Shown piece after piece: positions 31,804-54,767 of a stretch of 64,000 bases of DNA. Both the position numbers and the translations under genes were made by a program. Origin of the DNA: Romanomermis culicivorax (taxonomy: Eukaryota; Nematoda; Enoplea; Mermithida; Mermithidae); contig CAWUHX010000317.1 in assembly GCA_963922205.1 (NCBI GenBank), forward strand, positions 248,001 through 312,000. Direction: 5' to 3'. Position 1 is the first letter of the stretch. Each line of letters opens with the position of its first letter. A model generated the notes under the pieces. The model was not told the origin of the DNA, made no database searches, and saw only the letters and a program-made list of their open reading frames with translations.

Positions 31804-32345
31804 TGTAATGTCGAGACAGTGACCAAAAGGTTAGCAAAAATAAAGTTTAATAACCAAAAAAAATATAGATACAAAAAAAGATTTAACCTGACAGCTTCAG
31901 TATACATTTGGAATTCGTAAACGTGATTGGCGCCATAATAAATGAGTACAAGTAAAATGAATTAAAACGCGAATGAACAGATATAAAAAAAAGCAATATT
32001 CTACGGTGTTCGGTATGCGAGATCCAATCGAGAGAAAGAGAATGAGCTAACAAATGCGGGTTTATAAGGAGTTGGGAAAGTTGTTTACGAGTTTTAGGCC
32101 AACTGATAAGTTGATAAAGTTGTCTGGGTTTTATTGCACGATTTTTCTGTGGAAGGTTTGTGTCGGTATGTTTTGGTAATGATATTGTTTAGCTTATTGT
32201 AAGTTCATGTTTGTTTTGACTAAAGTTGGTAATTTGGTACTTGGATGAGCCTGGCATAGAAAGTTACATAAACAAAACTAATAAACATAAAAGTTACAAA
32301 AGAGTAAATAAACAAAATCGTATTGAAATGGGGGTTTTCCTGACA
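31804..32345 (-). repeat. 3' LTR of element 2
   Basis: About 542 bp, starting tgtaatgtcgagacagtgac and ending ggttttcctgaca on the plus strand. A TATAAA-like box (minus strand, 32066-32061) lies in mid-LTR. It is nearly identical to 40164-40704. Confidence 0.95.
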
Positions 32346-32378
32346 TGGCCGTCCTTTAAAGGTTGAACGTCCTCGTTC
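32346..32378 (-). promoter_or_regulatory. polypurine tract region of element 2
   Basis: Just inside the 3' LTR the minus strand reads aaaggacggcca, a weak plus-strand primer tract. It is preceded by gaacgaggacgttcaac (32378-32362), a 17-mer also found at the same place in element 3 (53820-53836). Its gaacg and cgttc arms are complementary. Confidence 0.55.
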
Positions 32379-34848
32379 GACATGGATTGACACGAAGATT
32401 ATAATGGCGACCATCTTGATTTTGAACATCTTCTTGCGATAGGCTTTCTTTTTGAACGATTTTCGAGTCCACTTGTTGTCGCCGACGATTATGTGGGCGA
32501 GTTCGGTTCACATGTAACGTTTCTTTTCCTTGTGGAATATCGCGATTTTCAATTATTACATTTGGATACAATACTTGGATGATCTTGTAGGGTCCTTCAA
32601 AGATGGGTTGCAATTTTTTTGCCTGGTTTTTCCTTACTATTTGGGATTCTTTCCATATCATGTCTCCAGCTTTGTACGAAACATTGTTTTTGTTTTTGTT
32701 ATAGTTTGTGGCATATTGATCCTGAGATTTTTGTATTTGATCTTGTATAATTGTTAAAGCGCTTGCAAAATGCTTTTGGACTTCAATATGATAGCTGTCA
32801 ATGTCAATGTAATGAAGGGGTGGATTGAAGCTTAATGCTGCATCAATAGGTAATTGGGGTATTCTACCATATATTAGTTCAAAGGGTGAATGATTTGTGG
32901 ATGCATTTGTGTGAATGTTTGTGGCGAAAACAGCATAGGGTAAATGTTGATCCCAATTCGAATGATTGTTTGATTGGATGTACATGCGCATCCGGGTGAT
33001 TAATGTTTGATTAGCACGTTCCACTTCACCATTAGCAATTGGGTGATATGCAGACGTGTGAATTTTCTTTGTATGGAATAAGTTTAGAATTTCTGTCATT
33101 AAATTTGATGTGAAATCGGATCCACGATCAGACTGAAGTATTTCCAGTGCACCGTGTCTGCAAACTATTTTTGTAATGAAAAGTTCTGCGATTGTTTTTG
33201 CCGTAATGTCTGCAGTAGCGAACGCTTCTAGGTACTTGGTAAAATAATCAATAAAAACGACTATGAATCGATGGCCATTTTCTGTAATAGGCAATGGACC
33301 CATACAATCTACAGCTATTCGGTTAAATGGGCCTGATACGGGGATTGGTTTGAGGGTGGCTTTAATTTTCCTGCGCATTGCTTTGTTTTTCTGACAAAGA
33401 CTGCAAGTACTGCAATATTCAGAAATGTCTTTTTGTAATGTTTTCCAAAAGTATCGTTTATTTATGAGTTGTATTGTTTTCTTTGTCCCAAAATGACCGA
33501 CAAGCTCGTCATCATGATGTGCACTGATTATCAAGTTAATTAATGAATTTGGGACAACCAATTTGACCAAAGAATTTTCGATTTTGAATAGAATGCCATT
33601 TTGTAGTTTGTAATCTGAGAAATTGTGGTTTGATGTTTTATTTTGTAAGGCATCAAAAATTTGTTTCAAATTTTGATCTTCTTTTTGAAGAGCTTGCATA
33701 TTAAATTCGTTTTCAATGGTTTCAAAGGATATTGGGTTAATTGATTGATTTGGATAGCAGATCAAATCAGTTTCGATGTCAAAACTTTGTTTAGCGGACA
33801 CGTCTGGTAGCCTAGAGAAAGCATCCGCATTAAGATGCTGTGTACCTTTTCGTGGAACTATATTAAGCTTTGTTTCAGCTACCGCTAAGCCCCATCTCGC
33901 AATTCGGGCTGAAGGGTTTGTTTTTTCTAGAACAGCTTTTACGGCCGTGTGATCCGTTTGAACAGTAACTTCATGTTGATGGAGGTAGGGTCTAAAATAC
34001 TTGATGAATTCAACAACGGCTAAAGTTTCAAGCTCTGTGATTGGATAATTCTTTTCAGATGGCTTTAATGTTCGACTTCCAAAAGCCACAGGGTGTTCCA
34101 TTTTATCATCCGCAATTTGACTGAGAACAGCACCAATTCCGTCTTTTGATGCATCCATTTGCAAGAGGAAAGGTCTAGAAAAATCCGGGTGTTTTAGAAT
34201 AGGTGGATTAATTAATTTAGTTTTTAGTAAATCAAATGCTTTTTGTTGTGGTTCGCCCCATGTGAATTTGATGCCCTTCTTTAAAAGATATGTGAGAGGT
34301 TGAGATTTTTGGGCACAATTAGCAATGAATTTTCTATAGTATGATATGAGGCCAAGGAATGACTTTACATCTTTGACATTTTCAGGTCTCTTGATATTTT
34401 GGACAGCTTGTAGTTTCATATTGTCTGGGCTAATCCCATTAGCCAAAATTTCATAGCCTAGATATTTGACTTCGGGATATGCAAATTTGCATTTGTCTAA
34501 GCAAAGTTTCATTTTACCATTTTGTAAACGATTTAGGATTGCTTGCAATCGTTGTAGCATTTGATCGAATGTTTTACCGAACACTAGAATGTCATCTAGG
34601 TACACTAAGCAAGACGTCCACTGTAATCCTGAGAGTAAAATGTCCATGAGCCGCTGAAACGTTGCAGGCGCATTACATAGACCAAAAGGAAGATAGTTAA
34701 ATTCATATAGTCCTGTTGGTGTCATGAAAGCTGTTTTTTCACGATCAGATTCTTTGATTGGAATGGACCAATAAGCGTTAGCTTGGTCCAAAGTGGTAAA
34801 ATGCTTCATGCCGTTTAATGTGTCAAGGATGTCATCAATACGCGGCAA
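32356..34848 (-). CDS. pol: Pol of element 2: reverse transcriptase, RNase H, integrase
   Basis: 830 codons downstream of the TGA at 34948-34950 and in frame with the upstream ORF; the first ATG is at 34848, but reverse transcriptase starts earlier. Order: reverse transcriptase with LPFGLCNAPATFQ and the active-site YLDD (about residues 83-86); RNase H with QMDASKDGIGAVLSQ, ELETLAVVEF and TDHTAVKAVL; integrase with an HHCC finger (GHFGTKKTIQ ... CSTCSLCQ), the catalytic Asp in VDCMGPLP, Asp in QSDRGSDF and Glu in GEVERANQTL; and a C-terminal GPY-like module, FEGPYKIIQVLYP. All catalytic residues I expect are present. It copies the RNA into DNA and integrates it. The stop codon abuts the polypurine tract. 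Confidence 0.93.
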   Translation of the reverse strand: MPRIDDILDTLNGMKHFTTLDQANAYWSIPIKESDREKTAFMTPTGLYEFNYLPFGLCNAPATFQRLMDILLSGLQWTSCLVYLDDILVFGKTFDQMLQRLQAILNRLQNGKMKLCLDKCKFAYPEVKYLGYEILANGISPDNMKLQAVQNIKRPENVKDVKSFLGLISYYRKFIANCAQKSQPLTYLLKKGIKFTWGEPQQKAFDLLKTKLINPPILKHPDFSRPFLLQMDASKDGIGAVLSQIADDKMEHPVAFGSRTLKPSEKNYPITELETLAVVEFIKYFRPYLHQHEVTVQTDHTAVKAVLEKTNPSARIARWGLAVAETKLNIVPRKGTQHLNADAFSRLPDVSAKQSFDIETDLICYPNQSINPISFETIENEFNMQALQKEDQNLKQIFDALQNKTSNHNFSDYKLQNGILFKIENSLVKLVVPNSLINLIISAHHDDELVGHFGTKKTIQLINKRYFWKTLQKDISEYCSTCSLCQKNKAMRRKIKATLKPIPVSGPFNRIAVDCMGPLPITENGHRFIVVFIDYFTKYLEAFATADITAKTIAELFITKIVCRHGALEILQSDRGSDFTSNLMTEILNLFHTKKIHTSAYHPIANGEVERANQTLITRMRMYIQSNNHSNWDQHLPYAVFATNIHTNASTNHSPFELIYGRIPQLPIDAALSFNPPLHYIDIDSYHIEVQKHFASALTIIQDQIQKSQDQYATNYNKNKNNVSYKAGDMIWKESQIVRKNQAKKLQPIFEGPYKIIQVLYPNVIIENRDIPQGKETLHVNRTRPHNRRRQQVDSKIVQKESLSQEDVQNQDGRHYNLRVNPCRTRTFNL

Positions 34849-34947
34849 AGGGTAAACATCCTTCTTTGTAGCTTGATTTAGTGCTCGAAAATCTATGCAT
34901 AATCTAAGGCCACGGCCTTTCTTTGGGACAAGAACACTATTGGTTGA

Positions 34948-37900
34948 TCAAGGGGAATTACTTTTGCTTATGATATTTTTAGTTTCAAGAGCTTTGACTT
35001 CATCCGTAATAATTTGTTTTTCTTTGGGGGAAGTTCGAAATGGAAATTTTCGAATGGGTTTATGATTTTCAGTTTCAATCGAGTGTTCCACACAAGTTGT
35101 TTTGCCTGTGTCTTTTTCGTCAAAGGCGTATAAGGCAGGAAATGTAACAAGTAGATTAATCAACTTATCTTTGTCAACAGGGTTGATGGAAGGAAAGATG
35201 TTCACATTTTTCGTGATCCATTCATGTGTAACAACGTTGGAGTATTTGAGTTGATTTTGTTGATCATTTAAATTTATTGAACTGATATTTTGATCGGGAA
35301 GATAGCATCTTATTTGACCAATTGTTGAGCCTGAATAAAGTTTTACTTTAAACGGATGTATATTAATGAGTTGAATAGGTATCCGTCCGTTAATAACTTT
35401 ACTAATCGACGATGCAAAATAAACTTTTACAGTTTTCATGATTTTGGGTTCAAACAATACATCAGCTGGTATTGATGCATATTGTTGTGAAACTGGCGCA
35501 GATATTATGGTACACGATCTTGGTGGTATAGAAATGTGTTCATCGATCTGAATGTCACATCGGCTAGAAGGTGGTACATATGGCATTCCTTCACATGGAA
35601 TTGGTTCTTCTTTCAACCGAATGAAAGAATTTTTCCAGTTGAATTCTGTAGTGCAAAATCGTGAAAAGAAATTTGTGCCAAGTATGAGGTCGGAAGTGCA
35701 GTCTTCTTGTATATGGACAAGAATAGTTTCTTCGACGTCATGTGATGTAATGGTTATGTAAACTGCACCAAAAAGATTTATTATACCACCATTGGCTGCA
35801 ATTGGTCTTGCAGATGTTGGTAAAATTCGAAGGGTTGATAGTTGTTGCGCCATTTTGACATCCATTAGTGAGTAAACAGCTCCTGTATCTAACAGAGCTT
35901 TTGCCTTAATTTCATGGTTTTTTTTGAAGTAAGTGTGCGGAGTTCGTTTAGGTTGATCAAAGTGGCAAGCAACATTTTCATCTTCAATGTTAATGGTGTC
36001 TCTCTTTTTGTTGTACCGGATTTTTAGTTTAGGTTTTCGGTTGAAAATTGAATGTTTTTGTTGGTTTTTATGCTTTCGCTTTGACAATTGGATTAAAGTT
36101 TGCATAAAACTAGATTGTTGGGTTGAATTATCTTCATTATCGTTTCTCTGGTTTGTTCTTTTTCTTTGACAATAAAGAAAACCCAAGTATGTGAAATATC
36201 CGATTGCTAAAAAAATGCAAAGCATGATTATGATATTCAGTACCAATTGCAAGGGTGCTTTGAGAAAACTATCAAAGAAGCTTGTGAATGCTTGACCTTC
36301 GACCTGGATTATATGTTCAAAAGAATGACCAATGCCGTCCGCTGCCGTTTTTATTCCAGTTCCCGCACCAGTGAGGGCATTATAAACGACATCTGATTGA
36401 AGTGAAAGGCCAGCAGTGTAATTGACAACGTTATTCAGTACAGTTTCAAGTTTATGTGTTTTATATAAGTATTGTCTGAAAAATGCAAAATTTGTAGTGG
36501 TTCGAGCCAGTTTATCATGAAAAACTGATGGTGTATCAAATTGAAACATTTGATGCTGATATTTCCACATCAGTTGAATTGGAACATAGCTTACATGGAT
36601 AGGACCATTTTGTGTAACCCACTGTGTTCCTTTTCTGAATACGTTAATCGGCTGATGAGCACAATCAACCACTGGGCTATATTCAGTCAGATCAGTGCTA
36701 CCTGGGCTGACGAACATTGTGATATTATTGATCAAGACTGGGAGATATTTATAGCAAGTTTGACCGATTTTGTAATCATGATACACTTTTGTGGGCGTGA
36801 TTTTCTTGCATGGCCACACAGTAATCACTTCGCCAGTAAAATCAGCTATAATGTCTTGCCGTTGCAGTAAAGCTCTGATACCCAAAGTGGGATCAAAGAG
36901 GATTAACTGCCAGATAATGTCTAGATGTTTTTGAGCGTATCTGCATAGTTCTAACCAAACATAGCGAAAATTATCAATTTCATTTCGTGTAATTTTGTAT
37001 TCCAGATAATTTAATTTTGAATTGATAGGATCATATTCTTGATCTTCAAAATTTGCATTTGGTTTCGTGTCGAATGGTGAGCCGTCATTTATTTTAATGA
37101 CAACACCTTGATGTGTAAAAAGAGCACTGTTGATTTCCGGGCATGGTTTGTAGGCTGATTTTATTTTGAAAGCACCTTGAATTTCGTCTACTATGAAGTA
37201 TTTTCCACTAAATTTTGCTTGATAATCACTTTTGAAGACCATCGGGCAAACGTGCATAAAATTTGTCTGGTTCCAGATAGTAGTGCTATCATCATTTATG
37301 CATTGTCCAGCATTGGGGACACATCCGCCTAGGTCGCCTAGATCACTTGTGACAGAGTTTCCATCCCAAGAGGCGATTTGACCCTGTTCAATGATAAAAT
37401 TTTGAACTGTAGTGCAGTAATCTTTACAACACCAAGTATAGTCAACATTCAATGATCGATTGGTTGACCATAAACCGTCATGCATTTTTACAAGTTTCTC
37501 TTCTAGATAAGTTTTTGATTCAAGGGTTTCACGACATTGTCTTGGTGTGACGTGATTTACTATAAGCTTGTCAGTTACGATTCCTTTTGAGCCAAAAAAA
37601 CCCATGTTAGTGCAAATGGTGCGGCTTCTCAAAGAACATTTGAAAGCTTTTGAGTAGACAGGTTCACTTCTTGGAATAAAAAGCGAAATATTGACAAGAT
37701 GTGGTTGATTTATTTTTGTTGGAGATTTGCATGATACTATCTTAGGAATTTCTAGTGCATGTCCTGATTTTGATGAACCACAGATTTGATATTCACTTAA
37801 CGTGGATGTAGGTGTGCAAAATAATGTCAAAATTGTAAGACATATAAAAATAAATGATGAACATTTATCACTAATAAATGATTTCGATAAATGTTGATCG

Positions 37901-39936
37901 AATTTTTGATTAAATGTGGGTGATTTGGTTAGAGATGCTGCCGTTGGTTGGAGCTTCGAAAAAGATTGATACACGCGAACAAATCGATTTTCCTGATTAA
38001 GCTGAAATGCATTTGTTAATGAATGATCCAAGAATAATTTGTAACTTGATTTTGTTGGCTTACTATTCGTGATAACGTCAGCTAATTGAGTTTTCAGCAA
38101 TGACGCGTACTTGTTTAGCTTTTCCTTTATTGTAGGATCATTTTCCTGTTCATTTTCGATTTCGATTGCGTTTAATGCAAATGTGAGCTTATCTACGGCG
38201 AGTTGATGGCTATCAATTTTTTGTTCGGCCATTTCAATGTCAGCCATCGGAGCAGGTGGCATGTCCGTCCGTTTAGCATCGCTGTTTTCTTGTGTCACTT
38301 GAGATTTGCCGCTGCCGTGCATCGGGCAAACAACACAAATGCAAAGTGGTCTGTCTAAAAAACCAGACTGATGTTCATCATACTGGATAGTGGAAGCAAA
38401 GTTAGTAGAAATAACTTGATCAAAATTTTGTGCATTGTTATTAGGATTAGGATAAAATAATGAAAGATTATCCTCAGAAAAATCAAGTGAAGTAGAATTG
38501 CTTTGGTTGGGATCTTGAAAAACATTGTTTTGATTTTGATTTCTTGATCGGTTTTGAGTATTCCCTTGTTGGTTCTGTCTATTTTGAACATTTCTGTCAA
38601 AAGTGTGATAGGTATGATTACGATTGTTCTGGAAATTACGATTTTGAGTACCGTTATTCCTTTGTTGAGAAATATTACGATTTTGAGCAGGGTTTTGTTG
38701 AGAAGTGTCGTGATTTGGGTATGAACGATCATTACTTTGATGTGAAAATCCAGAACATTGCGGTTGTGTGCGGCAAGTTATCGTTTTATGCCCGGTCCTA
38801 CCGCAAATATGGCATGGTGAGCGACAGGCTGCAGCCAAATGTCCAAATCGATTGCAAATGTTGCAATAAATTGTTCTTCGATTTTGAATACCTGTCTGAT
38901 TAGTCGCATTATTGTAACAGTAATTTGTAGTTTGTGTATCACGCGAATCAAGCGTTTGTTGTAATTGTGTGACCATTTCTTCAAGTTTTTTAAGTTTTTG
39001 ATCTTGCGCTAAAGAACAAACAGTATTAGGGTTATAGTTGTACAGATCTTCACGCATAATTTGTGATTCTGCATAGATTGCAGCTTTAGTAGCATCAGAT
39101 AAGCTTGTGAATTCACCGTATTTCACAGCATCATGTATAGGCGCTTTTAAGCTTCGTAAGAAAATTGGTTTAATTATGCTGTCTTTCGCCTGGGAATTTA
39201 AAGTTGTATATGCAAAATTCGCTAATTTTTTGAGTGCTTCATAATATTCAAGAACGGTCTCATTTTGGCGTTGCTTACGATCAAAAATGATTTGTTGGTG
39301 TATGTAACTATCTCGATCATCAGGATAGTTTGTTAAAAGTGACTGCTTGTAGCCGTTATAAGTTGCAGGAGCATTTACACTGTGTTTAGGATGATGAAAA
39401 GATGCAAGAGCAGCATTTGCTAAATTAGCCTCCAAATATGCTATTTTGTATTCTTCGTCCGTGTCAGGAATGTTTTGGAGCCGCATGAATTGTTCAAAAC
39501 GTTCAAACCACTCTGATAAGTTTTCCCCTAAAACACCTGAAAAAGGCAAAGGTGGCCGAAGTGTTAGCATTGGTGTAAAGCGGACAGCACGTTTTATTTC
39601 ATTGGCCTGGTCAGCTATGTCCAGATTTTCGACCTGTTGTGTAATGCGACGTAGTTGTTGATTTATTGGATCTGTTAAAGTTCTGAAAGTTTCTTGAATA
39701 GTTCTTTCTAACTTATCTGCATCAAGAGTGGGCATTTTCGGGTTTAGTTCGTTTAGTAATGCTTGTGATCTAAGACGATAATAATTGCGATTTGATTGTC
39801 TTGATTTTTCGATAATATCGTTGTACTCGTCAAATAAAGTAGGTAAGTTTGGTTGATTACTGTCGTTCGGATCAGAGCTTCCACTTGAAGAAGCCACAAT
39901 GAAAAATAAAAGCTGTAAGCTCAAAAGCTTATGCAA
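34948..39936 (-). CDS. gag: Gag-Env-Pro polyprotein of element 2
   Basis: 1,662 codons. Residues 1-20 are hydrophobic and signal-like (MHKLLSLQLLFFIVASSSGS). Gag capsid runs about 115-300. Two CCHC zinc knuckles are at 358-371 and 375-388, followed by an Asn/Gln-rich linker. A hydrophobic internal signal segment is at about 692-712. The envelope-like ectodomain is about 715-1228 and the membrane anchor about 1229-1255, followed by a basic tail. A retropepsin-type protease has LLDTGAVYSLMD (about 1348-1359) and DLILGTNFF. The start of reverse transcriptase follows, and the frame ends at TGA 34950-34948 inside the conserved SNSP-W motif, where element 3 has TGG. Without that stop the frame runs on into pol. 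Families are inferred from motifs; the env family is unidentified. Confidence 0.9.
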   Translation of the reverse strand: MHKLLSLQLLFFIVASSSGSSDPNDSNQPNLPTLFDEYNDIIEKSRQSNRNYYRLRSQALLNELNPKMPTLDADKLERTIQETFRTLTDPINQQLRRITQQVENLDIADQANEIKRAVRFTPMLTLRPPLPFSGVLGENLSEWFERFEQFMRLQNIPDTDEEYKIAYLEANLANAALASFHHPKHSVNAPATYNGYKQSLLTNYPDDRDSYIHQQIIFDRKQRQNETVLEYYEALKKLANFAYTTLNSQAKDSIIKPIFLRSLKAPIHDAVKYGEFTSLSDATKAAIYAESQIMREDLYNYNPNTVCSLAQDQKLKKLEEMVTQLQQTLDSRDTQTTNYCYNNATNQTGIQNRRTIYCNICNRFGHLAAACRSPCHICGRTGHKTITCRTQPQCSGFSHQSNDRSYPNHDTSQQNPAQNRNISQQRNNGTQNRNFQNNRNHTYHTFDRNVQNRQNQQGNTQNRSRNQNQNNVFQDPNQSNSTSLDFSEDNLSLFYPNPNNNAQNFDQVISTNFASTIQYDEHQSGFLDRPLCICVVCPMHGSGKSQVTQENSDAKRTDMPPAPMADIEMAEQKIDSHQLAVDKLTFALNAIEIENEQENDPTIKEKLNKYASLLKTQLADVITNSKPTKSSYKLFLDHSLTNAFQLNQENRFVRVYQSFSKLQPTAASLTKSPTFNQKFDQHLSKSFISDKCSSFIFICLTILTLFCTPTSTLSEYQICGSSKSGHALEIPKIVSCKSPTKINQPHLVNISLFIPRSEPVYSKAFKCSLRSRTICTNMGFFGSKGIVTDKLIVNHVTPRQCRETLESKTYLEEKLVKMHDGLWSTNRSLNVDYTWCCKDYCTTVQNFIIEQGQIASWDGNSVTSDLGDLGGCVPNAGQCINDDSTTIWNQTNFMHVCPMVFKSDYQAKFSGKYFIVDEIQGAFKIKSAYKPCPEINSALFTHQGVVIKINDGSPFDTKPNANFEDQEYDPINSKLNYLEYKITRNEIDNFRYVWLELCRYAQKHLDIIWQLILFDPTLGIRALLQRQDIIADFTGEVITVWPCKKITPTKVYHDYKIGQTCYKYLPVLINNITMFVSPGSTDLTEYSPVVDCAHQPINVFRKGTQWVTQNGPIHVSYVPIQLMWKYQHQMFQFDTPSVFHDKLARTTTNFAFFRQYLYKTHKLETVLNNVVNYTAGLSLQSDVVYNALTGAGTGIKTAADGIGHSFEHIIQVEGQAFTSFFDSFLKAPLQLVLNIIIMLCIFLAIGYFTYLGFLYCQRKRTNQRNDNEDNSTQQSSFMQTLIQLSKRKHKNQQKHSIFNRKPKLKIRYNKKRDTINIEDENVACHFDQPKRTPHTYFKKNHEIKAKALLDTGAVYSLMDVKMAQQLSTLRILPTSARPIAANGGIINLFGAVYITITSHDVEETILVHIQEDCTSDLILGTNFFSRFCTTEFNWKNSFIRLKEEPIPCEGMPYVPPSSRCDIQIDEHISIPPRSCTIISAPVSQQYASIPADVLFEPKIMKTVKVYFASSISKVINGRIPIQLINIHPFKVKLYSGSTIGQIRCYLPDQNISSINLNDQQNQLKYSNVVTHEWITKNVNIFPSINPVDKDKLINLLVTFPALYAFDEKDTGKTTCVEHSIETENHKPIRKFPFRTSPKEKQIITDEVKALETKNIISKSNSP
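36157..37869 (-). other. env: envelope-like glycoprotein domain within the element 2 polyprotein
   Basis: About 570 residues (polyprotein 690-1260) with the plan of a type I viral fusion or attachment glycoprotein: a signal segment, a Cys-rich ectodomain, then an anchor. Motifs conserved with elements 1 and 3 are CTNMGFFGSKGI, DYTWCCKDYC, EQGQIASWDG, LGDLGGC, IWNQTNF, FDPTLGIRALLQRQDIIADF, WPCK, FDTPSVFHDKLA and FRQYLYKTHKLE. Potential N-glycosylation sites include NRS, NQT, NIT and NYT. A Gly/Ala-rich stretch of about 40 residues precedes the anchor. I cannot assign a fusion class. Negative-strand RNA virus glycoproteins of the chuvirus type are one candidate, because such proteins are known to have been captured by arthropod retroelements. 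Confidence 0.75.
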
Positions 39937-40142
39937 AAAAAAACAATAAAATAATGTATGAAAGTTAGCTTCTACGCTTTGTGAATACGGTCTTCCTTAC
40001 GTGAAAGTATAGAAAAAGACCGTGCAGTAGAAATAACTAAAAGAAACGCAAATAAAAGAAATGCAAGTGAGGCGCTGATAACGTATAAAGTTTTTGGGCC
40101 TGTGTGATAACCCCAAAAATACAATACAAAAATAAGCAGTAT

Positions 40143-40163
40143 TCTTCCAAAGCCTCGCCAATT
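40143..40163 (-). promoter_or_regulatory. primer-binding site of element 2
   Basis: Directly after the 5' LTR the minus strand reads aat and then tggcgaggctttggaag. TGG pairs with a tRNA 3' CCA. The tRNA identity was not determined. Confidence 0.65.
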
Positions 40164-40704
40164 TGTAATGTCGAGACAGTGACCAAAAGGTTAGCAAAAA
40201 TAAAGTTTAATAACCAAAAAAAATATAGATACAAAAAAAGATTTAACCTGACAGCTTCGGTATACGTTTGGAATTCGTAAACGTGATTGGCGCCATAATA
40301 AATGAGTACAAGTAAAATGAATTAAAACGCGAATGAACAGATATAAAAAAAGCAATATTCTACGGTGTTCGGTATGCGAGATCCAATCGAGAGAAAGAGA
40401 ATGAGCTAACAAATGCGGGTTTATAAGGAGTTTGGAAAGTTGTTTACGAGTTTTAGGCCAACTGATAAGTTGATAAAGTTGTCTGGGTTTTATTGCACGA
40501 TTTTTCTGTGGAAGGTTTGTGTCGGTATGTTTTGGTAATGATATTGTTTAGCTTATTGTAAGTTCATGTTTGTTTTGACTAAAGTTGGTAATTTGGTACT
40601 TGGATGAGCCTGGCATAGAAAGTTACATAAACAAAACTAATAAACATAAAAGTTACAAAAGAGTAAATAAACAAAATCGTATTGAAATGGGGGTTTTCCT
40701 GACA
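40164..40704 (-). repeat. 5' LTR of element 2
   Basis: About 541 bp. It differs from the 3' LTR by about three substitutions and one base in an A-run. It starts minus-strand transcription of the element. Confidence 0.95.
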
Positions 40705-41224
40705 AATTTTCTCAGTCTTTTTTCCCTTAAAAATGCTTATAGACGGTTTATTTTAGTGTTTTTAAGCTTTTAGAACATGAAGTTTTTAGAGCGGTTGATT
40801 TTTTCCACATGAGAACTGGACCCCAAATTTTTTTCCTCATTTTCCAAAAATTTTCCCCATTTTTAAAAACGTTTATAATGTGCCTACGGATGCTTTTCCA
40901 TGCAATTAGGAGCATACCCAAGCATTTTGACGCTTTTGGATTCGGAAACCTACAACCTTGCATCTCTCAAGTAATTTCCGGTTCGAAATTGCGGTTAACT
41001 ATGCTTACAATTGCGGTTTTCCGGTTCCGCATTTTTGCGGAACCGCACAAAAGTATGCCTTTGTGAGAGCCGCAACTGACCCGCAATTGCGGGCCGCAAA
41101 ATTTGCGGCTGCAAAAAAACCGGTCACGTATGCCTACGGCTTTAATATTGCGACATTTTTGGAAAAAGCATAAATGTCCCAACATGTATGTCAGGAGAAA
41201 TGTTGCTGAGTGAACCGGGCTTTA

Positions 41225-42539: not shown

Positions 42540-42850
42540 AGAACATTAGCCACAGTAGCCCATGCGCCAGACACATTATTTATAACACAATGCATTAGCC
42601 ACATCAGCCCATTGGCCCACGGGCCACATTAGACCATGGCCACATTAGCTCATTATCCACATTAGCCTATTGGCCACATCAGCCCGTTGGCCACATTAGC
42701 CCAGGCCACATTAGCTCATTAGCCACATTAGCCCATTGGCTACATTAGCCCATTGGCCACATCAGCCCATTGGCCACATTAGCCAGATTAGCCTATTGGC
42801 CACATTAGACAGATTAGCCCATTGGCCCACTCAGTCACATTGGCTTAATT
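42540..42850 (+). repeat. minisatellite, ~17-22 bp unit
   Basis: At least fifteen imperfect copies of cacattagcccattggc, alternating with cacatcagcccattggc, run in tandem. Confidence 0.9.
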
Positions 42851-45437: not shown

Positions 45438-45441
45438 TAAT

Positions 45442-46356
45442 TGTAATGTACCTGCTAAAGCAGTACTGTAAATATATAGCACACTGTATGTGATAAACAT
45501 TTATTAAATATTATTCATTTTCGTATTTTATCGTCTCAAGGGTGTCTGGGATTCACACCCAAACATTCCTATAAATATACGTGAAGTACTTCATTTTGAT
45601 CCATTCACACCCCAGTAGCCCAATTAAGATGCCCCAATTAATTTGCACAAACGGCAGCTGGTCCCCTAGAACCTACACTAAACTACACATTCCACAGCTA
45701 CTGTAATCCCCCCTAAAAATCGTAAACAACACCTGCACACAGTAAAATACGTAAAAGCCCCACCAGACAGTAGTCTCAAGTGTAACGGTAGTGGCGGCCC
45801 CACAAAACATGTGTATACAGAGAAACAGATACAGGAAGCATGCACAGAAGCACAGAGGTGTGGCCAAGGCCATCGTAGAAAGCAAGCGAAGCACGAAAAG
45901 CATACAGTACCAGGAAAGCATTAGGAAGGCATAACTGAGTAAGCATAAATGCGAAGCAGGAAGCGACGATTGGCGGAAGAAGATGGACAGAAGCACGACC
46001 TCCGGTGACGTCCAGGGAGTGGCCAAAAACGTCATATAAAAAGAGAAGCAAAGCGTGATTTTATTATTATTGGTTAGAGTTTTTGGATTTTCAAATTGGT
46101 TGTTTTAAAACCGCACTCGTCCCCGTTTTTATATTTTCAAGCGGCCATTTTTACGAAAGCATTTAAACCGAGGCCCCGTTCATTCTTTGCAAGCAAACGC
46201 GACGTTCATTTTTGTTTATTCGACGAATCAAGCGATTGTCAAACCCACCGTAATCGTATTATCGTCTCGCCCGCACCCCCATTCTGTTATAGCCATTCCG
46301 GCCGTAACGTCCATTTCGGTTAAAGTAAAGTGCTTCACACAAATCTGGTCCTCACA
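45442..46356 (+). repeat. 5' LTR of element 3
   Basis: 915 bp, beginning tgtaatgtacctgctaaagc and ending ctggtcctcaca. A TATAAAAAG box is at 46035-46043. Confidence 0.95.
46035..46043 (+). promoter_or_regulatory. TATA box in element 3 5' LTR
   Basis: TATAAAAAG about 320 bp before the LTR end. It is kept in the 3' LTR at 54447-54455. Confidence 0.6.
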
Positions 46357-46361
46357 TATTT

Positions 46362-46379
46362 TGGTGACCGTACCATACC
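46362..46379 (+). promoter_or_regulatory. primer-binding site of element 3
   Basis: Five bases after the LTR, tggtgaccgtaccatacc begins with the TGG expected to pair with a tRNA 3' CCA. It differs from the element 2 primer site. Confidence 0.7.
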
Positions 46380-46497
46380 GTTAACCACTGGAACTCTCTG
46401 CCCCCAATTAGGTGTACTCTTATCCGGGCATTTAGAAGCATTAGATAATACAGTAGTAATCATTTCCTACAGTAAGACAGTATTCGTAGAAAGCAAA

Positions 46498-49098
46498 ATG
46501 GAAATCCCCTCCAACGAAACATTAAGCAATACATTTAAACGAATACAGCGGAAAGCAAAAATTGAAGCATTTAAGCAGAAATCCCAGCGTAAACCAAGAA
46601 TGACCCACCAAACACAAGATCATTTAGGAGAAATCGTTAGAGAACAGATAAACGATTTATTTTCAGGACATTTTCGTACCCTACACACACAATTGAATCA
46701 GAATACAGTAAACCCTACCCTAATAGACGATCTAAGAACAGCAAACATTCGTAATAACATGGCAAATAATTTCTATGCAAAACCTACAGTATTCACGGGC
46801 GGCGCAACCCAACATTTTGGTGAATGGAATAAACGTTTAGAACAATTCATGGCACTTCAAGGCATGAAAGATACAGACGTACAGTTAAAGTTGGCATGTT
46901 TAGAAATTCATTTAGGAGGAGCTGCGTTAGCAAAATTCAAAAGTTTAGCCAATTCCGAAAACCCTCCCCACACATATGAGCAGTATAAAGTCGCATTACA
47001 GGCATTTTTCCCAAACAATAGAGATAATGAGCTGCATCAACAATTTTTACGCGAAAGAAAACAAAAGCGATCAGAAGCAGTAACTGAATTCTTATTCGAC
47101 CTAGAACATCTCGCAACCCTCGCCTACCCTAACTTTAACACAGACGCAAGAGAAATGATCATAAAACCCCTCTTTGTAGAAGGCATGCAAAACGAAATCA
47201 GGGAAGCAATTAAATATAGACAGTTTGCAACTTTAAAAGAAATGTCAGATGGAGTAGCTTACATTGAACAGCAAATCCTTCGAAATGAGTTAAAATCTAA
47301 CGCCCTTCCCTTTATACCCCCAAAACCCGAACCCATCTTTTCCCTAACCAAAACTACAGACCAACAGGGTCTTTTGCATCAGTTAGAACAACAAGTAAAA
47401 GATTTACAATTGCAGATCAAACAAAAACCTCAAGCCCCACAACAGAGTAACTACAACAGTTTTAGTAACAACACTTTAAGCAGGAATAATGCTTATAGGA
47501 ACAATACCACCCCTAGGCAACCCACATGCTTCCAGTGTGGACAACTCCGACACGTAGCTTGTAATTGTAAATCAGTGGGCACCCGGAAATCATGTGAAAT
47601 TTGTTTTCGTAATAACCACAGTACACATGATTGTAAAAGCCGATGCACCCACTGTTCCCAAACAGGACATAGATCTGATAACTGCCTTTCAAAACCCTAC
47701 TCAAATTTTCAATGTTTTCTATGCAAGCAGAGAGGTCATACAAGTAGGTACTGTCCGAATCAACAGAGTCGTAATATTCAAAATTGCATTGAGTACAGGC
47801 AACCCCTACCCCTCATGGACATTGATGACCCCCCATTTTATTCAAAATTACCCGCCATAACTAACAGCCCTCAGACTACTTTAGGAACAATTATGCCCAC
47901 TACCCACTGCCGTAGTGACGAATATGTCCTCGACCTGGACGTACCCGATTGGTGCGCCATGTCACCACCCCCCAAGCCCGAAGCAGCCAAAGTTGAAAAA
48001 TCGCCGCCCACCATACCGGCGGACTACAAAATCCAGCGGAAACAGGAAAACAAGTCGCCCATCGCCCCCGAGACACCCTCCAAACCCGGCCGCAACTTAT
48101 TGTCCCTTTTACACAGCCTGACCCCCGAACTCTACCAATTCCGCCCCCGCCAAACACTGCTACCGACCCCAACAAGTAAGCAAGTCCAAACCCCATCCCA
48201 TGACTCAACTTCTAAAGTTTTACAGACTGTTCAGATTGCAAACCAGCCACCCCCTCAGCCCAAAACTGAAGAACACCAAAAGCGGCCATGCCAAACCAGC
48301 CAGAACGAAAATAAACAGTGCCCCGTTGCCTCCACTAAAACACTATATTGGCCATTGTATTGTATATTTTTATGCATAATAATCCTCACATCGTGTAGTG
48401 CCCAATTTCAGATGTGTGGAACTTCATTGAGCGGTCACTCAGTCAGCATACCAAAACTTGTATCACAAATGCCCCCTTCCACAGTAGACAAACCCGTACA
48501 GACATTCCGAAAAATCTATATCCCCTCCACTAAACCTCACATAACAGACGCATACAAATGCAGTGTTCGTAAACGCAAAATTTGTACTAATACAGGATTT
48601 TTTGGATCAAAAGGTATTGCCTTCCACCAAACAGAAATGCAAAATCTAACCCCACATGTTTGTAAGGCAATCATTATAGACAAAGAACACAACCGTCAAA
48701 AATTATACGAAACCCAACCAGGATTTTGGTCAACAAATAACTCCTTAAGGGTAGAATACACATGGTGTTGTACAGACCATTGTACCTCGGTCACTAACGT
48801 CATCATAGAAATAGGACAAATAGCATCTTGGAATGGAAAATCTATGACAGGTACATTAGGTGACCTGGGGTCATGCAAACCGACATCAGGTCATTGTGTC
48901 ACAGCCGACAGATCCATTATCTGGAATGAAACAGCATTTGAAAACTTATGCCCTTTTGAATACAAAAACACACACCCCATCAAACTCACACAAACCCACA
49001 TGATAATAGAAGAACTACAAGATGCATTCTCGGTTAAAAATACACTCTTTTCGAACCCCAACTGCCCAGAAATTCAAGACAGCATTCTAACTGAATAA
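46498..49098 (+). pseudogene. gag: Gag and N-terminal envelope of element 3
   Basis: The frame is open from 46330, but the ATG at 46498 (MEIPSNETLSNTF) is the likelier start because the earlier one lies at the LTR edge. Gag shows GGATQHFGEWNKRLEQFM and DAREMIIKPLFVEGM. Four regular CCHC knuckles follow: CFQCGQLRHVACNC, CEICFRNNHSTHDC, CTHCSQTGHRSDNC and CFLCKQRGHTSRYC (about 47527-47755). Next is a Pro-rich linker, a signal segment (YCIFLCIIILTSCSA, about 48358-48402), and the env ectodomain with CTNTGFFGSKGI, YTWCCTDHC and LGDLGSC. It ends at TAA 49096-49098 inside env, where elements 1 and 2 continue. Confidence 0.88.
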
Positions 49099-50890
49099 AG
49101 CATTATTGTACAATTATTTAAAAGCACCCCATATCGTAACACATTTTTAACCCCAAAAACCAACGAAACTCATACTACACTATACGATTTTGATAATTTT
49201 GAACCCATTAACGTGAAACTAAATTATCTAGCAGACAAAATCCAGGAGTTCGGAATTCAAAATTTCAAAAACATATAGAGTGAATTATGCAGACAGGCAC
49301 GGCATCACCTTGATCTCGTATGGCAAATTTTGCGCCTTGATGCAACCCTTGGAGCGCGTGCATTTCTACAGAGAAACGACATAATAGCAGAATTCACAGG
49401 AGAAGCCCTCACCCTCTGGCCCTGTAAACAAGTAAACACATCCAAAGTCTTCTACAGCCACAAAATTAATCAGAACATGTTACAAACTTTTACCCATTCT
49501 CGTAGGAAGCGAACTCATGTTTTCCAATCCAGGAGGCAGCGATTTGACCCCTTTCTCACAAACCGTCGACTGCAATCACATGCATGTAGCTCTTTACAAA
49601 CAGAATAATACACGGGTCAGTGAAACAGGATCCCCGCATGTCACAAATTTACCTTTAGAAATCGTCAGGAACCAAAATTTCTCCCTTTTCCATTTTAACA
49701 CACCCGCAATTTTTCATGATCAACTTGCAACAATTTCGACAAACTTACTCTTTTTGAAACAATACATTTATAAAACTCACACACTTGAAAATGTTGTTGA
49801 AAAACTCGTCAATTACACCGCCCAAATGTCCCTTAACTCATATACAGTTTACAATATGATCTCAGGCAGTGGCCAAGCAATCGGAAACACCCTCTCTGGC
49901 GCCGGTCAAGGCATAGAACATGTAATAACTGGTACCACCCAAAGCCTCACAGACGGATTTAATAATTTAACCAAAGGAGCCCTGCAAATCATTATTAATC
50001 TAGCCGTTATTACTGTAGTTATTGCAGGCGTCTTTTACCCTTTTCTCATTCTTCGAAAATATTTCCCTTCTCCAAAGCATCATGCCACAAATGAACATGC
50101 GTACGAAACACCATCACACAACAGACGTTTACATGAGACTATTCCCCCATCATTCGGTCATGCTCTCTCAGAATTAGCTAATGGTCGTGGGGCACAAATG
50201 CAGCAGAAATACGTCCTTGTGGATATCGATACCCCCAGAACTCCTGCAATCGAACTCATTAATCAAATTCACCAAGCTGGATCAAACAAGCCACCCCAAA
50301 ATTTTCCCGAGAAACATACCCCTCATATTCCTATCACACTTAACGGCAAACTAATCACAAAGGGCATGATTGACACTGGTGCAGTCTACTCACTCATTGA
50401 TTCCGGAATCGCTCAAATTTTGCAGTTAGACATGAAACCCCTGCTAGTCCAAGCAAAAGCAGCAAATAATCTCCCAATTCACTTTGTGTGGACCACTTTT
50501 GTCACAGTGACAGCCCAAACAATTCAGGAAACAATAATGGTCCATGTCCAAAAAGATTGCACAGCAGACATCCTTCTAGGCAAAAACTTTCTCAGTCGAT
50601 TTTCGGAATATACTATCAACAATGAGAAATCCCAGGTCAAATTCGGCAATGTCATACTACCCTGTGATGGCCTAGAATATAGCCCCCTTTCGACTCATGG
50701 TGGAACCTATCTAGATGAGAAATTAGAATTACCACCCTGTACAGTAACCGAATTCACTGTCCCCTTGCCGAAATCGTACCTACAAGTTAAAAGCTCGAGT
50801 TTACTCCGAAACCCAAACAGAACCCCAAAGTTCATTTTGCAGCTTGTGTCTCTGAAAACCAAAACAGTCGCATACGCATATCGGTCTTAA
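49099..50890 (+). pseudogene. env: C-terminal envelope and protease of element 3
   Basis: After the TAA the same frame continues to a TAG near 49277, then with RARAFLQ-type env sequence and WPCKQVN to a frameshift near 49473. The new frame runs to 50890. It carries SNPGGSDLTPF, FNTPAIFHDQLA and KQYIYKTHTLENVVEKL, a Gly-rich stretch, and a membrane anchor (about 49985-50070, LAVITVVIAGVFYPFLIL). The protease has MIDTGAVYSLID and DILLGKNFLSRF. A frameshift near 50828 ends it. Confidence 0.82.
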
Positions 50891-52322
50891 ACACACAAGA
50901 CACAGCTCAAATTCTTTACCCCCGAACATGCATTGCTACAGTCTCCTGTTACATCCCAAAACAAAATGCCCCCGCTAACGTAACCCCCTCCACGCAAAAC
51001 CAGCCCAACCGTTTTGATACATTCATATGGTTAAAAGAAAATGTTAATTTAACCTCCAGTGACCTCACAGAAACCGAGAAAACTCAACTTCTACGCGCCC
51101 TCTCGAAGTATCCTACATTATATGCTAAATCGAAAATGGATGTAGGTAGAACCACCCTCGTTTCACATACAATTGACACCAATGGCTCCCAACCTGTACG
51201 CAGGCACCTTTATCGGACTTCCCCAAAAGAAAAGCAAATCATACAAGCAGAAGTTAAGCAACTCGCAGCAGCAGGTGTCATAAGCCAGAGCAATTCTCCA
51301 TGGTGTACCAATACAGTTTTAGTCCCCAAAAAAGATGGAGGCCATCGTTTATGCATTGATTTTAGAGGCCTCAATAAAGTAACCAAAAAAGATACCTATC
51401 CCTTGCCCCGCATAGACGAAATTCTAGACACCCTACGTGGAATGAAATATTTTACGTCCCTTGACCAATCCAATGCATATTATTCCATTCCTATAGCACA
51501 AGCAGACAGAGAAAAAACCGCCTTTAATTGTTCAGCCAGCCAATATCAGTTTAACTACCTCCCCTTTGGCCTCACCAACGCCCCAGCCACATTCCAAAGG
51601 TTAATGGATGTTATCCTCTCGGGATTGCAATGGAACACATGCCTTGTATATCTCGACGATGTTTTGGTATTCGCAGACTCCCATGCCCAAATGCTGGAAC
51701 GTTTAGACACTATTCTTGCCCGATTCTCACAAGCAGGCCTTAAACTAAACATACAAAAATGCAAATTCTGCCAGCCCCAAGTCCAATACTTAGGCCATGT
51801 CATTTCTCAGCAAGGCATTTCACCAGACCCCAACAAGGTGCAGTCCATTTATGACATACCCACACCCAAAAGCTCAAAAGAAGTCAAGTCATTCCTTGGC
51901 CTACCCTCGCATTATCGTAGATTCATCCTGAATTGCTCCCAAATTTCAAGCCCCCTCACAGCCCTACTCAAAAAGAATTCGGAATTTTCCTGGGGCCCGA
52001 ACAGCAAAACGCATTCACTAAACTCAAAGAGTTGCTCATTCATGCCCCAATACTGCAGCATCCCGATTTCACAAAACCGTTCATTTTGCAAACTGACGCC
52101 TCCAAACTCGGAATCCGAGCCATTCTCAGTCAGCTAGACAGCAAAGGTCAGGATCGCCCCATTGCTTTTGGGAGCCGCACATTGAAACCCACAGAACGCA
52201 ACTACCCAATAACTGAATTGGAAACCCTTGCAGTAGTTGAGTTTGTCAAGTATTTCCGCCCCTACCTTTTCCAGCAACATGTTATTGTACACACTGACCA
52301 TACAGCAGTTCAGGCAGTCTAA
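50891..52322 (+). pseudogene. pol: reverse transcriptase and RNase H start of element 3
   Basis: The frame open from about 50830 to 52137 gives the protease-RT linker and reverse transcriptase with SNSPWCTNTVLVPKKDGG, LPFGLTNAPATFQRLMD and YLDDVLVFA. A frameshift near 51995 moves RNase H (QTDASKLGIRAILSQ, ELETLAVVEF, HTDHTAVQAV) into another frame, which ends at a TAA near 52320. Trp of SNSPW is TGG here; the corresponding codon in element 2 is TGA. Confidence 0.88.
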
Positions 52323-53821
52323 CAAAAGGAAAACCCGTCCCCTCACATTGCCCGTTTGGGATTAGCCCTCTCCGGTATTCAACTCGACATTCGACTTAAG
52401 AAAGGCACTGCTAACCGCAACGCAGATGCTGTTTCTCGATTCCCCTCACAGAAAGCGAAGCAATCCTTTGATATTGAGCAATTAGAAACCCGCCCTGAAA
52501 TATCCATCATCAATTTGGTTCTTGAAGCTGAAGCAACTGAACAAGAAGAGCAACAGAAAAACTTCGCCGAACTCCAATGCACTGATCCAACTGTCAAATG
52601 TATTTTAGCAAAAATCGCCCAAAAACACCCCCTTACTCTGATCAAATTCCCAGTGCATCACAACATCCTCTTTCGTATAATCAACAAGCAGGCAAAACTA
52701 TACATTCCCAAATCACAAGTCCAGCATCTCATTGCCTCCCATCATGACAGCAAATTCACAGGTCATTTTGCTGCCAGGAAAACTTTACACTTGCTCAGAC
52801 AAAAATATTTTTGGCCCCAAATGAGCCATGATATCCAATGTTACTGCAAAACTTGTCACCCATGCCAGACACAAAAAGCCCTCCGGGACAAAGTACATGC
52901 GAATCTAGTACCCATCCAGCCGACTGGCCCATTTGACAGAGTCCGTGTTGATTGCATGGGGCCGTTACCCCTCACTGAAGACGGCAACCGATTCATTGTC
53001 CTTTTCATTGATTATTTCACAAAGTATGTAGAGGCATTCCCGACCCTTGACATCACTGCAGCCACTATTGCCAAGTTATTCGTAACCAAACTTGTTTGCC
53101 GTCATTGTCTCCAAAAATTATCCATTGTGATTGTGGCTCCGATTTTGTATCCGATTTCTTTTCACGAATCACTAGCTTATGCAATACTCAGAAAATTCAT
53201 ACCATGCCGTACCATCCCATTGCTAATGGAGAAGTTGAGCATTGCAAAAAAACTCTAGCCACCCGTATCCGCATGTATATCAATTCAAATCACACTGATT
53301 GGGATACTTATCTCCCCTATGCCGTTTTCTCGATCAACATTCATAAGAATGATAGCACCTCGTATTCCCCATTTGAATTGCTCCACGGTAGACAGGCTAA
53401 TCTTCCATCAGAGGCAGCCTTAAATTTTTTCCCCACGTCCTACATGGTTGATTTAGATGATTATGCCCTTCGTGTAAAATCACATTTTACAGAAGCACTC
53501 TCAACCGTGCAGAAAAGTTTACAAAAAGCCCAAGACCACTATACCTGTCAGTATAACAAGCATGCTCAGAACATACATTACAAGGCAGGTGATCTTATTC
53601 TTTACAAAAACCATTCGTGTAATCAAGGGTTGACTCCCAAATTCCTCCCTCGCCAAAACGGGCCCTATACAGTTACAAATTTCATGTACCCCAATGTTAC
53701 ACTCAAACACCCCCATAAGAATATCACATTTACAGTACATGTAAACGAGACAACCCCTTTCTACCCTCGGAAAGCACCTATCGAATCTGCACCCACCCCT
53801 CCTCAACCTCGAAAGCCTTGA
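52323..53821 (+). pseudogene. pol: RNase H end and integrase of element 3
   Basis: The frame 52356-53258 carries NADAVSRFP (end of RNase H), the integrase HHCC finger (GHFAARKTLHLL ... CKTCHPCQ) and VDCMGPLPLTEDGNRF with the first catalytic Asp. A frameshift near 53105 moves the rest into 53096-53821, with HCDCGSDF (Asp), NGEVEHCKKTL (Glu) and NGPYTVTNFMYP. The stop TGA is at 53819-53821, just before the polypurine tract. Confidence 0.88.
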
Positions 53822-53852
53822 ACGAGGACGTTCAACTCCAGAAGGAGGGAAA
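53820..53852 (+). promoter_or_regulatory. polypurine tract region of element 3
   Basis: agaaggagggaa (about 53840-53852) directly precedes the 3' LTR. Upstream is gaacgaggacgttcaac (53820-53836), identical over 17 bases to element 2. Here it is non-coding, while in element 2 it is within pol. Confidence 0.75.
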
Positions 53853-54767
53853 TGTAACGTACCTGCCAAAGCAGTACTGTAAATATATAACATACTGTAT
53901 GTGATAAACATTTATTAAATATTATTCATTTTCGTATTTTATTGTCTCAAGGGTGTCTGGGATTCACACCCAAACATTCCTATTAAATTACGTGAAGTAC
54001 TTTATTTTGATCTGTTCACACCCCAGTAGCCCAATTAAGATGCCCCAATTAATTTGCACAAATGGCAGCAGGTCCCCTAGAACCTACACTAAACTACACA
54101 TTCCACAGCTACCGTAATCCCCCGTAAAAATCGTAAACAACACCTGCACACAGTAAAATACGTAAAAGCCCCACCAGACAGTAGTCTCAAGTGTAACGGT
54201 AGCGGCGGCCCCACAAAACATGTGTATACAGAGAAACTGATACAGGAAGCATGCACAGAAGCACAGATATGTGGCCAAGGCCACCGTAGAAAGCAAGCGA
54301 AGCACGAAAAGCATACAGTACCAGGAAAGCATTAGGAAGGCGTAACTAAGTAAGCATAAAAAGCGAAGCAGGAAGCGACGATTGGCGGAAGAAGATGGAC
54401 AGAAGCACGACCTCCCGCGACGCCCAGGGAGTGGCCAAAAACGTCGTATAAAAAGAGAAGCAAAGCATGATTTTATTATTATTGGTTAGAGTTTTTGGAT
54501 TTTCGAATTCGTCGTTTTAAAACCGCGCTCGTCCCCGTTTTTATATTTGCAAGCGGCCATTTTTACAAAGCATTTAAACCAAGGCCCCGTTCATTATTTG
54601 CAAGCAAAGGCGACATTCATTTTTGTTTATTCGACGAATCAAGCGATCGTCGAACCCACCGTAATCGTATTATCCTCTCACCGGCGCCCCCATTCCGTTA
54701 TAGCCGTTCCCGCCGTAACGTCCATTTTGGTTAAAGTAAAGTGCATCACACAAATCTGGTCGTCACA
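53853..54767 (+). repeat. 3' LTR of element 3
   Basis: 915 bp, beginning tgtaacgtacctgccaaagc and ending ctggtcgtcaca. About 50 differences from the 5' LTR. Confidence 0.95.

Follow-up and report, generated by a model that had tools for sequence, protein, structure and literature searches.

The window analysed here, a 64,000-nt stretch of a Romanomermis culicivorax contig, is repeat-rich, with three elements (E1, E2 and E3) within about 32 kb; tRNA and Rfam scans of it returned no matches. The features of E2, all on the minus strand, are:

31804..40704, minus: whole LTR element, with a 4-bp target duplication (AATT)
40164..40704, minus: 5' LTR, sense strand TGTCAGG...ACATTACA
31804..32345, minus: 3' LTR, from comparison of the LTR pair
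34948..39996, minus: 1,682-aa ORF with gag, env, protease and the start of the reverse transcriptase (RT) in a single frame; the first Met is residue 88
38773..38865, minus: two CCHC zinc knuckles at the nucleocapsid end of gag (pattern match)
37798..37878, minus: internal signal segment preceding env, residues 707-733 (hydropathy)
36259..37797, minus: env ectodomain, class III-type fusion glycoprotein by similarity (PF24664), 16 Cys (Pfam, PDB profiles)
36196..36258, minus: env transmembrane anchor, followed by basic residues (hydropathy)
35659..35913, minus: aspartic protease (Pfam PF13975, E 3.8e-5, below the curated cutoff; DTG motif)
34948..34950, minus: in-frame TGA interrupting RT, with the frame open beyond it (frame scan)
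32356..34947, minus: 863-aa ORF with RT, RNase H and integrase, in the gag-env frame (Pfam; rve match below cutoff)

The E2 LTRs are 99.3% identical across 542 aligned positions and have TG...CA ends. AATT flanks both of their outer edges; since the inner edge of the 5' LTR also reads AATTGGC, this target-duplication match may in part be coincidental. From 39996 to 32347 (7.65 kb), the frame contains two stops, the TGA at 34950-34948 and a terminal stop at 32358, and it encodes, in this order, gag, signal segment, glycoprotein, membrane anchor, protease, RT, RNase H and integrase. Pfam placed Monjiviricetes_fusion at residues 991-1259 of the 1,682-aa ORF, followed by the aspartic protease at 1362-1446 (the latter below its cutoff), and RVT_1, RNase H and integrase domains in the next ORF with the frame unchanged. 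The two CCHC knuckles, at residues 378 and 395, lie upstream of env. The features of E3 and of E1 are as follows:

45442..54767, plus: E3, whole LTR element, with a 4-bp target duplication (TAAT)
45442..46356, plus: E3 5' LTR, 94.5% identical to the 3' LTR
53853..54767, plus: E3 3' LTR, from comparison of the LTR pair
46324..49098, plus: E3 gag (four CCHC knuckles), signal segment and N-terminal part of env in a single ORF
49096..49438, plus: E3 middle part of env, not continuous, with stops at 49096 and 49276 and a change of frame
49436..50890, plus: E3 C-terminal part of env with transmembrane anchor, and DTG protease, in a single ORF
50791..52137, plus: E3 RT (Pfam)
51993..53788, plus: E3 RNase H and integrase pieces, frame-broken
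22581..23288, plus: E1 gag capsid remnant (tblastn E 2e-35; Retrotrans_gag E 0.028, below cutoff)
25040..26310, plus: E1 env remnant, broken (tblastn E 4e-51)

E3 has the same order as E2, but its pieces are separated by stops and frame changes. The initial annotation had claimed the order gag-env-protease-RT-RNase H-integrase for both elements, and Pfam and frame scanning confirm it, in a single frame in E2; two corrections are that E2 lies on the minus strand and that E3 is damaged. E1 had been read as gag followed by the same env, which holds by tblastn, although the two ORF pieces of its env have no Pfam match; as a tblastn search 3' of this env also found no protease or pol, E1 backs only half of the order. 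The LTRs of E2 and E3, described as unrelated, are largely so, except for a 19-nt match (E 4e-4) and a common 17-nt motif directly before the 3' LTR.

The same order was found in three database proteins from other sources, P0009, P0010 and P0011, with lengths of 2293, 2294 and 2338 aa and 32–37% identity in env; the contigs behind P0009, P0010 and P0011 measure 8.8, 9.5 and 7.9 kb. In these protein sequences, which are possibly joined gene models, PF24664 follows the end of gag and precedes the protease in one chain, and RVT_1, RT_RNaseH(_2), Integrase_H2C2 and rve follow one another in E2 as well as in all three (the protease and rve of E2 being below cutoffs). Thus, the arrangement is not peculiar to the window, and the earlier statement that the order is kept across diverged elements now extends to these polyproteins. 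Both the gag/env and the env/protease junctions are in frame in every element showing both (5/5: E2, E3 and P0009-P0011), with 25-45% identity between groups in gag and env. In these five, the signal segment is preceded by its nearest in-frame Met at a distance of 45-127 residues, against 3 residues in P0012, a protein in which a BEL/Pao-like integrase end is joined to a homologous env, 35% identical to that of E2 and located downstream. Searching with env recovered P0012 as its sole match, with named exogenous viruses absent. The ranking of database proteins was inflated by the scores of two-element gene models, and P0011 was missing from the ranked list. No pattern match in the contig collections was confirmed, either with env alignment A1 (0 of 50 in viral contigs, 0 of 57 in genome contigs) or with E2 pol (0 of 11 in viral contigs).

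In profile searches the insert resembles class III fusion glycoproteins, in agreement with its initial annotation as a glycoprotein. The E2 env matches PF24664 (Monjiviricetes_fusion) with E 9.8e-16, passing the curated cutoff; Monjiviricetes are negative-strand RNA viruses, chu-like ones included. In a PDB profile search, herpesvirus gB accounted for 31 of 35 matches, 9 of them with E < 0.01 (best E 5.1e-4), and phmmer with the E2 env alone gave zero PDB matches to E 1. PF12259, the F-type env, is absent by Pfam from E2, E3 and P0009-P0011, which carry PF24664 instead; the N-terminal part of the E3 env alone has no Pfam env match. The predicted structure (mean pLDDT 41.8, pTM 0.22) is too poor for a fold search. 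The ectodomain has 16 Cys in each of E2, P0009, P0010 and P0011, and, in the translated parts scanned (with the E3 pieces P0006 and P0007 left out), hydrophobic segments occur only before env and at its end, the exception being E2 residues 16-34, upstream of the first Met. Within 26 residues from the anchor end there are 4 (E2), 8 (P0009), 3 (P0010) and 8 (P0011) K/R; in P0010 the 3 K/R face 4 D/E, against the expected topology. N-glycosylation sequons per 100 aa number 0.88-1.07 in env, 0.00-1.79 in gag and 0.28-1.23 in pol, and, not being enriched in env, are no help for topology. Differences between E2 and E3 at codon positions 1, 2 and 3 are 0.41, 0.31 and 0.65 in the N-terminal part of env, 0.47, 0.31 and 0.69 in gag, and 0.48, 0.28 and 0.65 in protease; env is under protein-level constraint, in a pattern resembling that of gag and protease.

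With regard to known systems, the pol order PR-RT-RNase H-integrase with gypsy-type domains, and the TG...CA LTRs with duplications of 4 bp each in E2 and E3 (4-6 bp in Metaviridae/Ty3-gypsy), agree with Metaviridae/Ty3-gypsy. In a tree built without named-clade references, the RT groups among gypsy-type proteins. The PF24664 and gB matches point to a chuvirus-type class III glycoprotein at the level of family. Retroviridae carry env after pol, in contrast to its place before the protease here. Errantiviruses and insect endogenous retroviruses likewise combine a Ty3/gypsy pol with a captured viral fusion protein; however, in the accessible descriptions of errantiviruses this is an F-type (baculovirus) env located after the integrase and made by splicing, whereas here a PF24664 env precedes the protease. 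The aphid gene model P0085 (gag-PR-RT-RH-IN-Baculo_F, then a second RT) exemplifies that usual errantivirus-like order. Anakin, a mosquito BEL/Pao element that has captured a glycoprotein of chu-like, class III type, is similar in its env but has, according to the available part of its description (PMC7642597), a BEL/Pao pol, unlike the Ty3/gypsy pol of E2-type elements; P0012 looks Anakin-like, with an env that follows the integrase end. Endogenous glycoproteins derived from Jingchuvirales are often flanked by gypsy fragments in arthropods, and the accessible text of this 2023 survey states no clear evidence for capture by Gypsy or Copia (PMC10084718); the glycoprotein type is the same, but the env described here forms an in-frame part of gypsy-type elements. 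Gypsy elements carrying type III fusion glycoproteins are nevertheless already known, as the available part of PMC13172572 indicates, and a meeting report, as far as its account goes, credits Chary and Hayashi (eLife 2025) with env-carrying gypsy elements across Metazoa, beyond insects.

We consider it probable, at about two in three, that these are Ty3/gypsy-type (Metaviridae-like) endogenous retroelements with a class III-type glycoprotein in frame at the gag-pol junction, expressed as one polyprotein. The genomic RNA would be translated into a single Gag-Env-Pol polyprotein, of which gag would be synthesised in the cytosol until the internal signal segment directs the chain to the ER. Env would then be threaded into the lumen, its N-terminus freed by signal peptidase, and the anchor would act as a stop-transfer, leaving protease, RT, RNase H and integrase to be synthesised in the cytosol; the element's own protease would then sever two links, that between Env and Pol and that between Gag and the signal segment. 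Entry protein and enzymes would in this way be supplied in fixed proportions, with no env splice needed. The likely function is infection, from cell to cell or of the germline, by an enveloped particle. Flavivirus and alphavirus polyproteins follow the same topological logic (cytosolic capsid, internal signal, lumenal glycoprotein, cytosolic downstream parts) and serve as a working analogy with no claim of common descent, as here the genome is a reverse-transcribing LTR element.

Whether this order arose once was addressed with RT trees. From 130 proteins, 7 were excluded beforehand (P0001, P0003, P0004, P0006, P0007, P0008 and P0012), an RT stretch was obtained from 123/123 of the remainder, and 3 short ones were dropped, leaving 120 rows, many of them two-element gene models for which the best RT per model was used. 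Thinning at 68% identity left 28 rows, and removal of three flagged as long (P0025, P0053, P0056) and two nearly so (P0048, P0121) gave a final tree of 23. A repeated origin, in which Ty3/gypsy and BEL/Pao elements swapped homologous env genes that came to lie at the gag-pol junction on independent occasions, is a tentative but serious alternative: the five env-upstream elements form one clade in 0/200 bootstrap trees of RT-RNase H, env position requires three changes on the best RT tree, the common ancestor of the five spans 21 tips in the 120-row FastTree, and the BEL/Pao-like P0012 carries the related env described above. Conversely, constraining the five to one clade gives a tree that the AU test does not reject (p = 0.101), alignments of gag pieces from all five exceed those of shuffled sequences, P0009 and P0010 pair firmly in both RT and env trees, and E2 and E3 do so in RT (100/99), with 88/90 in env and 46/21 once E1 is added to the env tree. 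A single origin, proposed in the initial annotation as one ancestral insertion, is therefore neither shown nor rejected. This alternative is about origin, and is compatible with the polyprotein mechanism.

A less likely alternative keeps the same anatomy and invokes splicing: an env mRNA would join the leader or gag start to an env exon, and a second splice would remove env and restore gag-pol, env being then a facultative exon or intron. Drosophila errantiviruses do produce env by splicing from a variety of exons upstream of it, which in one subclade means from inside gag (PMC12992720, in its accessible part), and in-frame junctions would fit an optional exon too; yet a separately spliced env would have no need of both junctions being in frame, as they are in 5/5 elements. 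One polyprotein is accordingly the preferred mechanism over a spliced env mRNA, and appears the best candidate from the reading frames. That the insert is some other membrane or matrix-like gag domain is very improbable: it adjoins gag, its structure model is of low confidence, and the E1 env pieces and the E3 N-part lack a Pfam env match, but the PF24664 and gB profile matches, on which this candidate was rejected, together with the signal, anchor and 16 Cys, argue against it. Least probable of all is a misassembly, or a chimera formed by insertions lying inside or beside one another, which a window so dense in repeats might invite, but E2 and E3 are bracketed by LTRs and target duplications, and the assembly chimera was rejected on the recurrence of the order in P0009-P0011, from other contigs.

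The initial annotation knew of no described lineage with this order, and we likewise found no description of gag-env-pol in the open-access literature, a scope outside which lies the most relevant work, that of Chary and Hayashi. As far as searched within that scope, what appears new is the position of env and its single frame, and not the type III glycoprotein in gypsy. In the remaining examples with a visible order, env comes after pol; these are P0085, P0012 and literature-described elements as far as their accessible descriptions extend. The usual place of env is the end of the coding region, and a mid-frame env suggests a different route from retroelement to virus.

Capture of an env makes a retrotransposon into a virus, and we know of no retrovirus, errantivirus or BEL/Pao element with a single Gag-Env-Pol genome plan. 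That env has stayed in frame between gag and pol despite deep divergence suggests that a second arrangement can be stable. From it follow the prediction of a polyprotein threaded through the membrane and the question of whether the envelope of an LTR element can be produced with no mRNA dedicated to it. On balance, it is slightly more likely than not that there is an old and widespread lineage of reverse-transcribing animal viruses whose fusion glycoprotein is produced as the central part of a Gag-Env-Pol polyprotein by means of an internal signal peptide. If true, the assembly of enveloped particles would be coupled to insertion into the ER, and the env splice would be dispensed with.

The order gag, env, protease and pol, proposed in the initial annotation for LTR retroelements of the window, was borne out: it occupies one frame in the second of three elements (E2), persists broken in the third (E3), and recurs in three database polyproteins (P0009, P0010 and P0011). 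For the first element (E1), gag followed by env was recovered by tblastn with E2 pieces, with E1 env pieces lacking a Pfam match; no protease or pol was found downstream of E1 env by that search.

Features of the three elements
31804-32345 and 40164-40704, minus strand: E2 LTRs, 99.3% identical, TG...CA ends, AATT on the outer sides of both
39996 to 34951, minus strand: E2 first ORF, a single open frame of 1,682 aa; two CCHC knuckles (residues 378 and 395) mark the gag end, followed by PF24664 (Monjiviricetes_fusion; residues 991-1259, hmmscan E 9.8e-16) and an aspartic protease with an LLDTGA motif (residues 1362-1446, hmmscan score under the Pfam curated cutoff)
34950-34948, minus strand: in-frame TGA ending this ORF
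down to 32356, minus strand: E2 second ORF, 863 aa, resuming the frame of the first, with RVT_1, RNase H, Integrase_H2C2 and rve (hmmscan; rve score under the Pfam curated cutoff)
45442-46356 and 53853-54767, plus strand: E3 LTRs, 94.5% identical, TSD TAAT
46324-49098, plus strand: single ORF with E3 gag (four CCHC knuckles), signal segment and env N-terminal part
49096 and 49276, plus strand: stop codons in the E3 env middle
49436-50890, plus strand: single ORF with the E3 env C-terminal part, including the anchor, and a DTG protease
22581-23288: E1 gag
25040-26310: E1 env

Across 7.65 kb, the E2 gag-to-integrase frame contains two stops in all, the second being its natural end. E3, whose protease match exceeds the Pfam curated cutoff unlike that of E2, shifts frame twice, ahead of the env C-terminal part and then ahead of RT; given these changes and the broken env middle, we read E3 as a copy of this gene plan that is older and has broken down. 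Identity between E2 and E3 is 41% for gag capsid and 45% for the N-terminal part of env, and between E2 and the env pieces of E1 it is 38-41%; the three are accordingly classed as separate families, in agreement with the earlier proposal that diverged elements keep the order. A 17-nt motif, GAACGAGGACGTTCAAC, is common to E2 (32362-32378, minus) and E3 (53820-53836, plus) immediately upstream of the 3' LTR, apart from which their LTRs and primer-binding regions differ.

Tandem arrays lie between E1 and E2 (28106-29027, unit of approximately 97 bp) and between E2 and E3 (42621-42829, degenerate, 17 bp, GGCCACATTAGCCCATT-like). Elsewhere, a MULE transposase domain (17541-18506, minus, E 5.5e-16) is flanked by long inverted GACAATTGGGTGAA-type repeat arrays (17102-17255 / 19190-19343) and may belong to a Mutator-like element whose ends are repetitive; a DDE_Tnp_4 transposase fragment (8770-9132, plus, E 7.2e-13) is presumably Harbinger-like; and an Exo_endo_phos domain (6618-6968, minus, E 8.3e-6), with same-strand ORFs beyond it (3776-5912, minus) resembling non-LTR RT pieces by eye, is probably a decayed LINE.

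The envelope-like nature of the insert was likewise upheld. PF24664 scored above its curated cutoff in E2, P0009-P0011 and P0012, a database protein with a homologous env, and narrowly in the E3 C-terminal part (27.3 versus 27). A five-env profile matched 35 distinct PDB sequences (E up to 10), 31 of them herpesvirus glycoprotein B (gB): 30 by name, and one labelled ORF8, which we take to be a gB. Nine of these had E <0.01 (best 5.1e-4), being related and hence not independent. The ectodomains of E2, P0009, P0010 and P0011 each contain 16 cysteines, and the AlphaFold2 model of env was poor. A class III fusion glycoprotein is the likeliest identity of the insert, and its Pfam family would suggest descent from chuviruses in particular. 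Differences between E2 and E3 at codon positions 1/2/3 (0.41, 0.31, 0.65 in env N; 0.46, 0.31, 0.59 in env C) resemble those of gag and protease, which points to similar protein-level constraint on env.

A search scored by E2 env, limited to proteins with lengths 0.55-1.75 times that of the ORF, matched 3 of 2,836 candidates: P0009 (2,293 aa, 35% env identity to E2), P0010 (2,294 aa, 37%) and P0011 (2,338 aa, 32%). By hmmscan at the protein level, the order along each single chain is PF24664, retroviral protease, RVT_1, RNase H, integrase (in P0010, residues 737-892, 1070-1166, 1394-1554, 1617-1744 and 1852-2024, respectively); upstream of env, a zinc knuckle scored in P0009 and P0011, and P0010 shows a CCHC motif at 335. 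Among the five env-upstream elements, every pairing of gag capsid pieces and of env pieces aligned above 30 shuffles each, and so did integrase in the four elements compared (all but E3); protease alignments were weaker, with E3 versus P0009/P0010 within the shuffled range. The order is therefore not peculiar to the window and is common to diverged proteins from other sources. Among the best 120 of 7,922 RT relatives (query P0010 included), only P0009 and P0010 carried PF24664.

On RT-RNase H trees, E2+E3 and P0009+P0010 were firm pairs, and the five elements were monophyletic in 0/200 bootstrap trees, with constraint to one clade not rejected (AU p = 0.101; 23 rows). In a 120-row FastTree, their common ancestor spans 21 tips, of which 16 lie outside the five. 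On the env tree, the pairing of P0009 with P0010 was firm, E2+E3 (88/90) fell to 46/21 with E1 added, deeper branches were weak and P0012 lay on a long branch. The order may have arisen through a single insertion followed by env losses, or through several insertions.

Regarding expression, both the gag/env and env/protease junctions are in frame in 5/5 elements. In E2, P0009-P0011 and E3 other than its pieces P0006 and P0007, hydrophobic segments were found only directly before env and at its end, except for one upstream of the E2 first Met. The nearest upstream in-frame Met lies 118 (E2), 127 (E3), 58 (P0009), 45 (P0010) and 50 (P0011) residues from the signal segment, in contrast to 3 in P0012. 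Counted from the end of the anchor, a stretch of 26 residues contains 4, 8, 3 and 8 K/R and 3, 2, 4 and 1 D/E in E2, P0009, P0010 and P0011, respectively. Sequon density was of no help for topology, as the env range (0.88-1.07 per 100 aa) overlaps gag (0.00-1.79) and pol (0.28-1.23). The simplest reading, a well-motivated hypothesis, is that a single Gag-Env-Pol polyprotein would be translated with its gag and pol parts cytosolic and its env part inside the ER, and that signal peptidase together with the element's own protease would process it. The main rival is that env would be made by splicing, as described for Drosophila errantiviruses (PMC12992720).

An env-only search matched 1 of 2,751 candidates, P0012 (739 aa, 35% identity). 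Its N-terminal residues match DUF5641 (E 0.015, under its cutoff), a domain that we take as the end of a BEL/Pao integrase; directly behind it come signal, PF24664 glycoprotein and anchor. A BEL/Pao element thus seems to carry a homologous env too, there placed after pol, which suggests that env genes have been exchanged between Ty3/gypsy and BEL/Pao lineages. The aphid gene model P0085 serves as a contrast: its order is gag-PR-RT-RH-IN-Baculo_F, and a second RT comes after.

In agreement with the initial annotation, the open-access literature covered, which leaves out one key paper, yielded no account of an env placed between gag and protease; the papers matching a direct wording of this order all concerned HIV. 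PMC7642597 describes Anakin, a BEL/Pao element carrying a chuvirus glycoprotein; PMC10084718 reports no clear capture by Gypsy, and PMC12440569 names known env captures. The gag-env-protease-pol arrangement is real, and, as far as searched, these env-bearing Ty3/gypsy elements are a known kind of element with a new genome plan.
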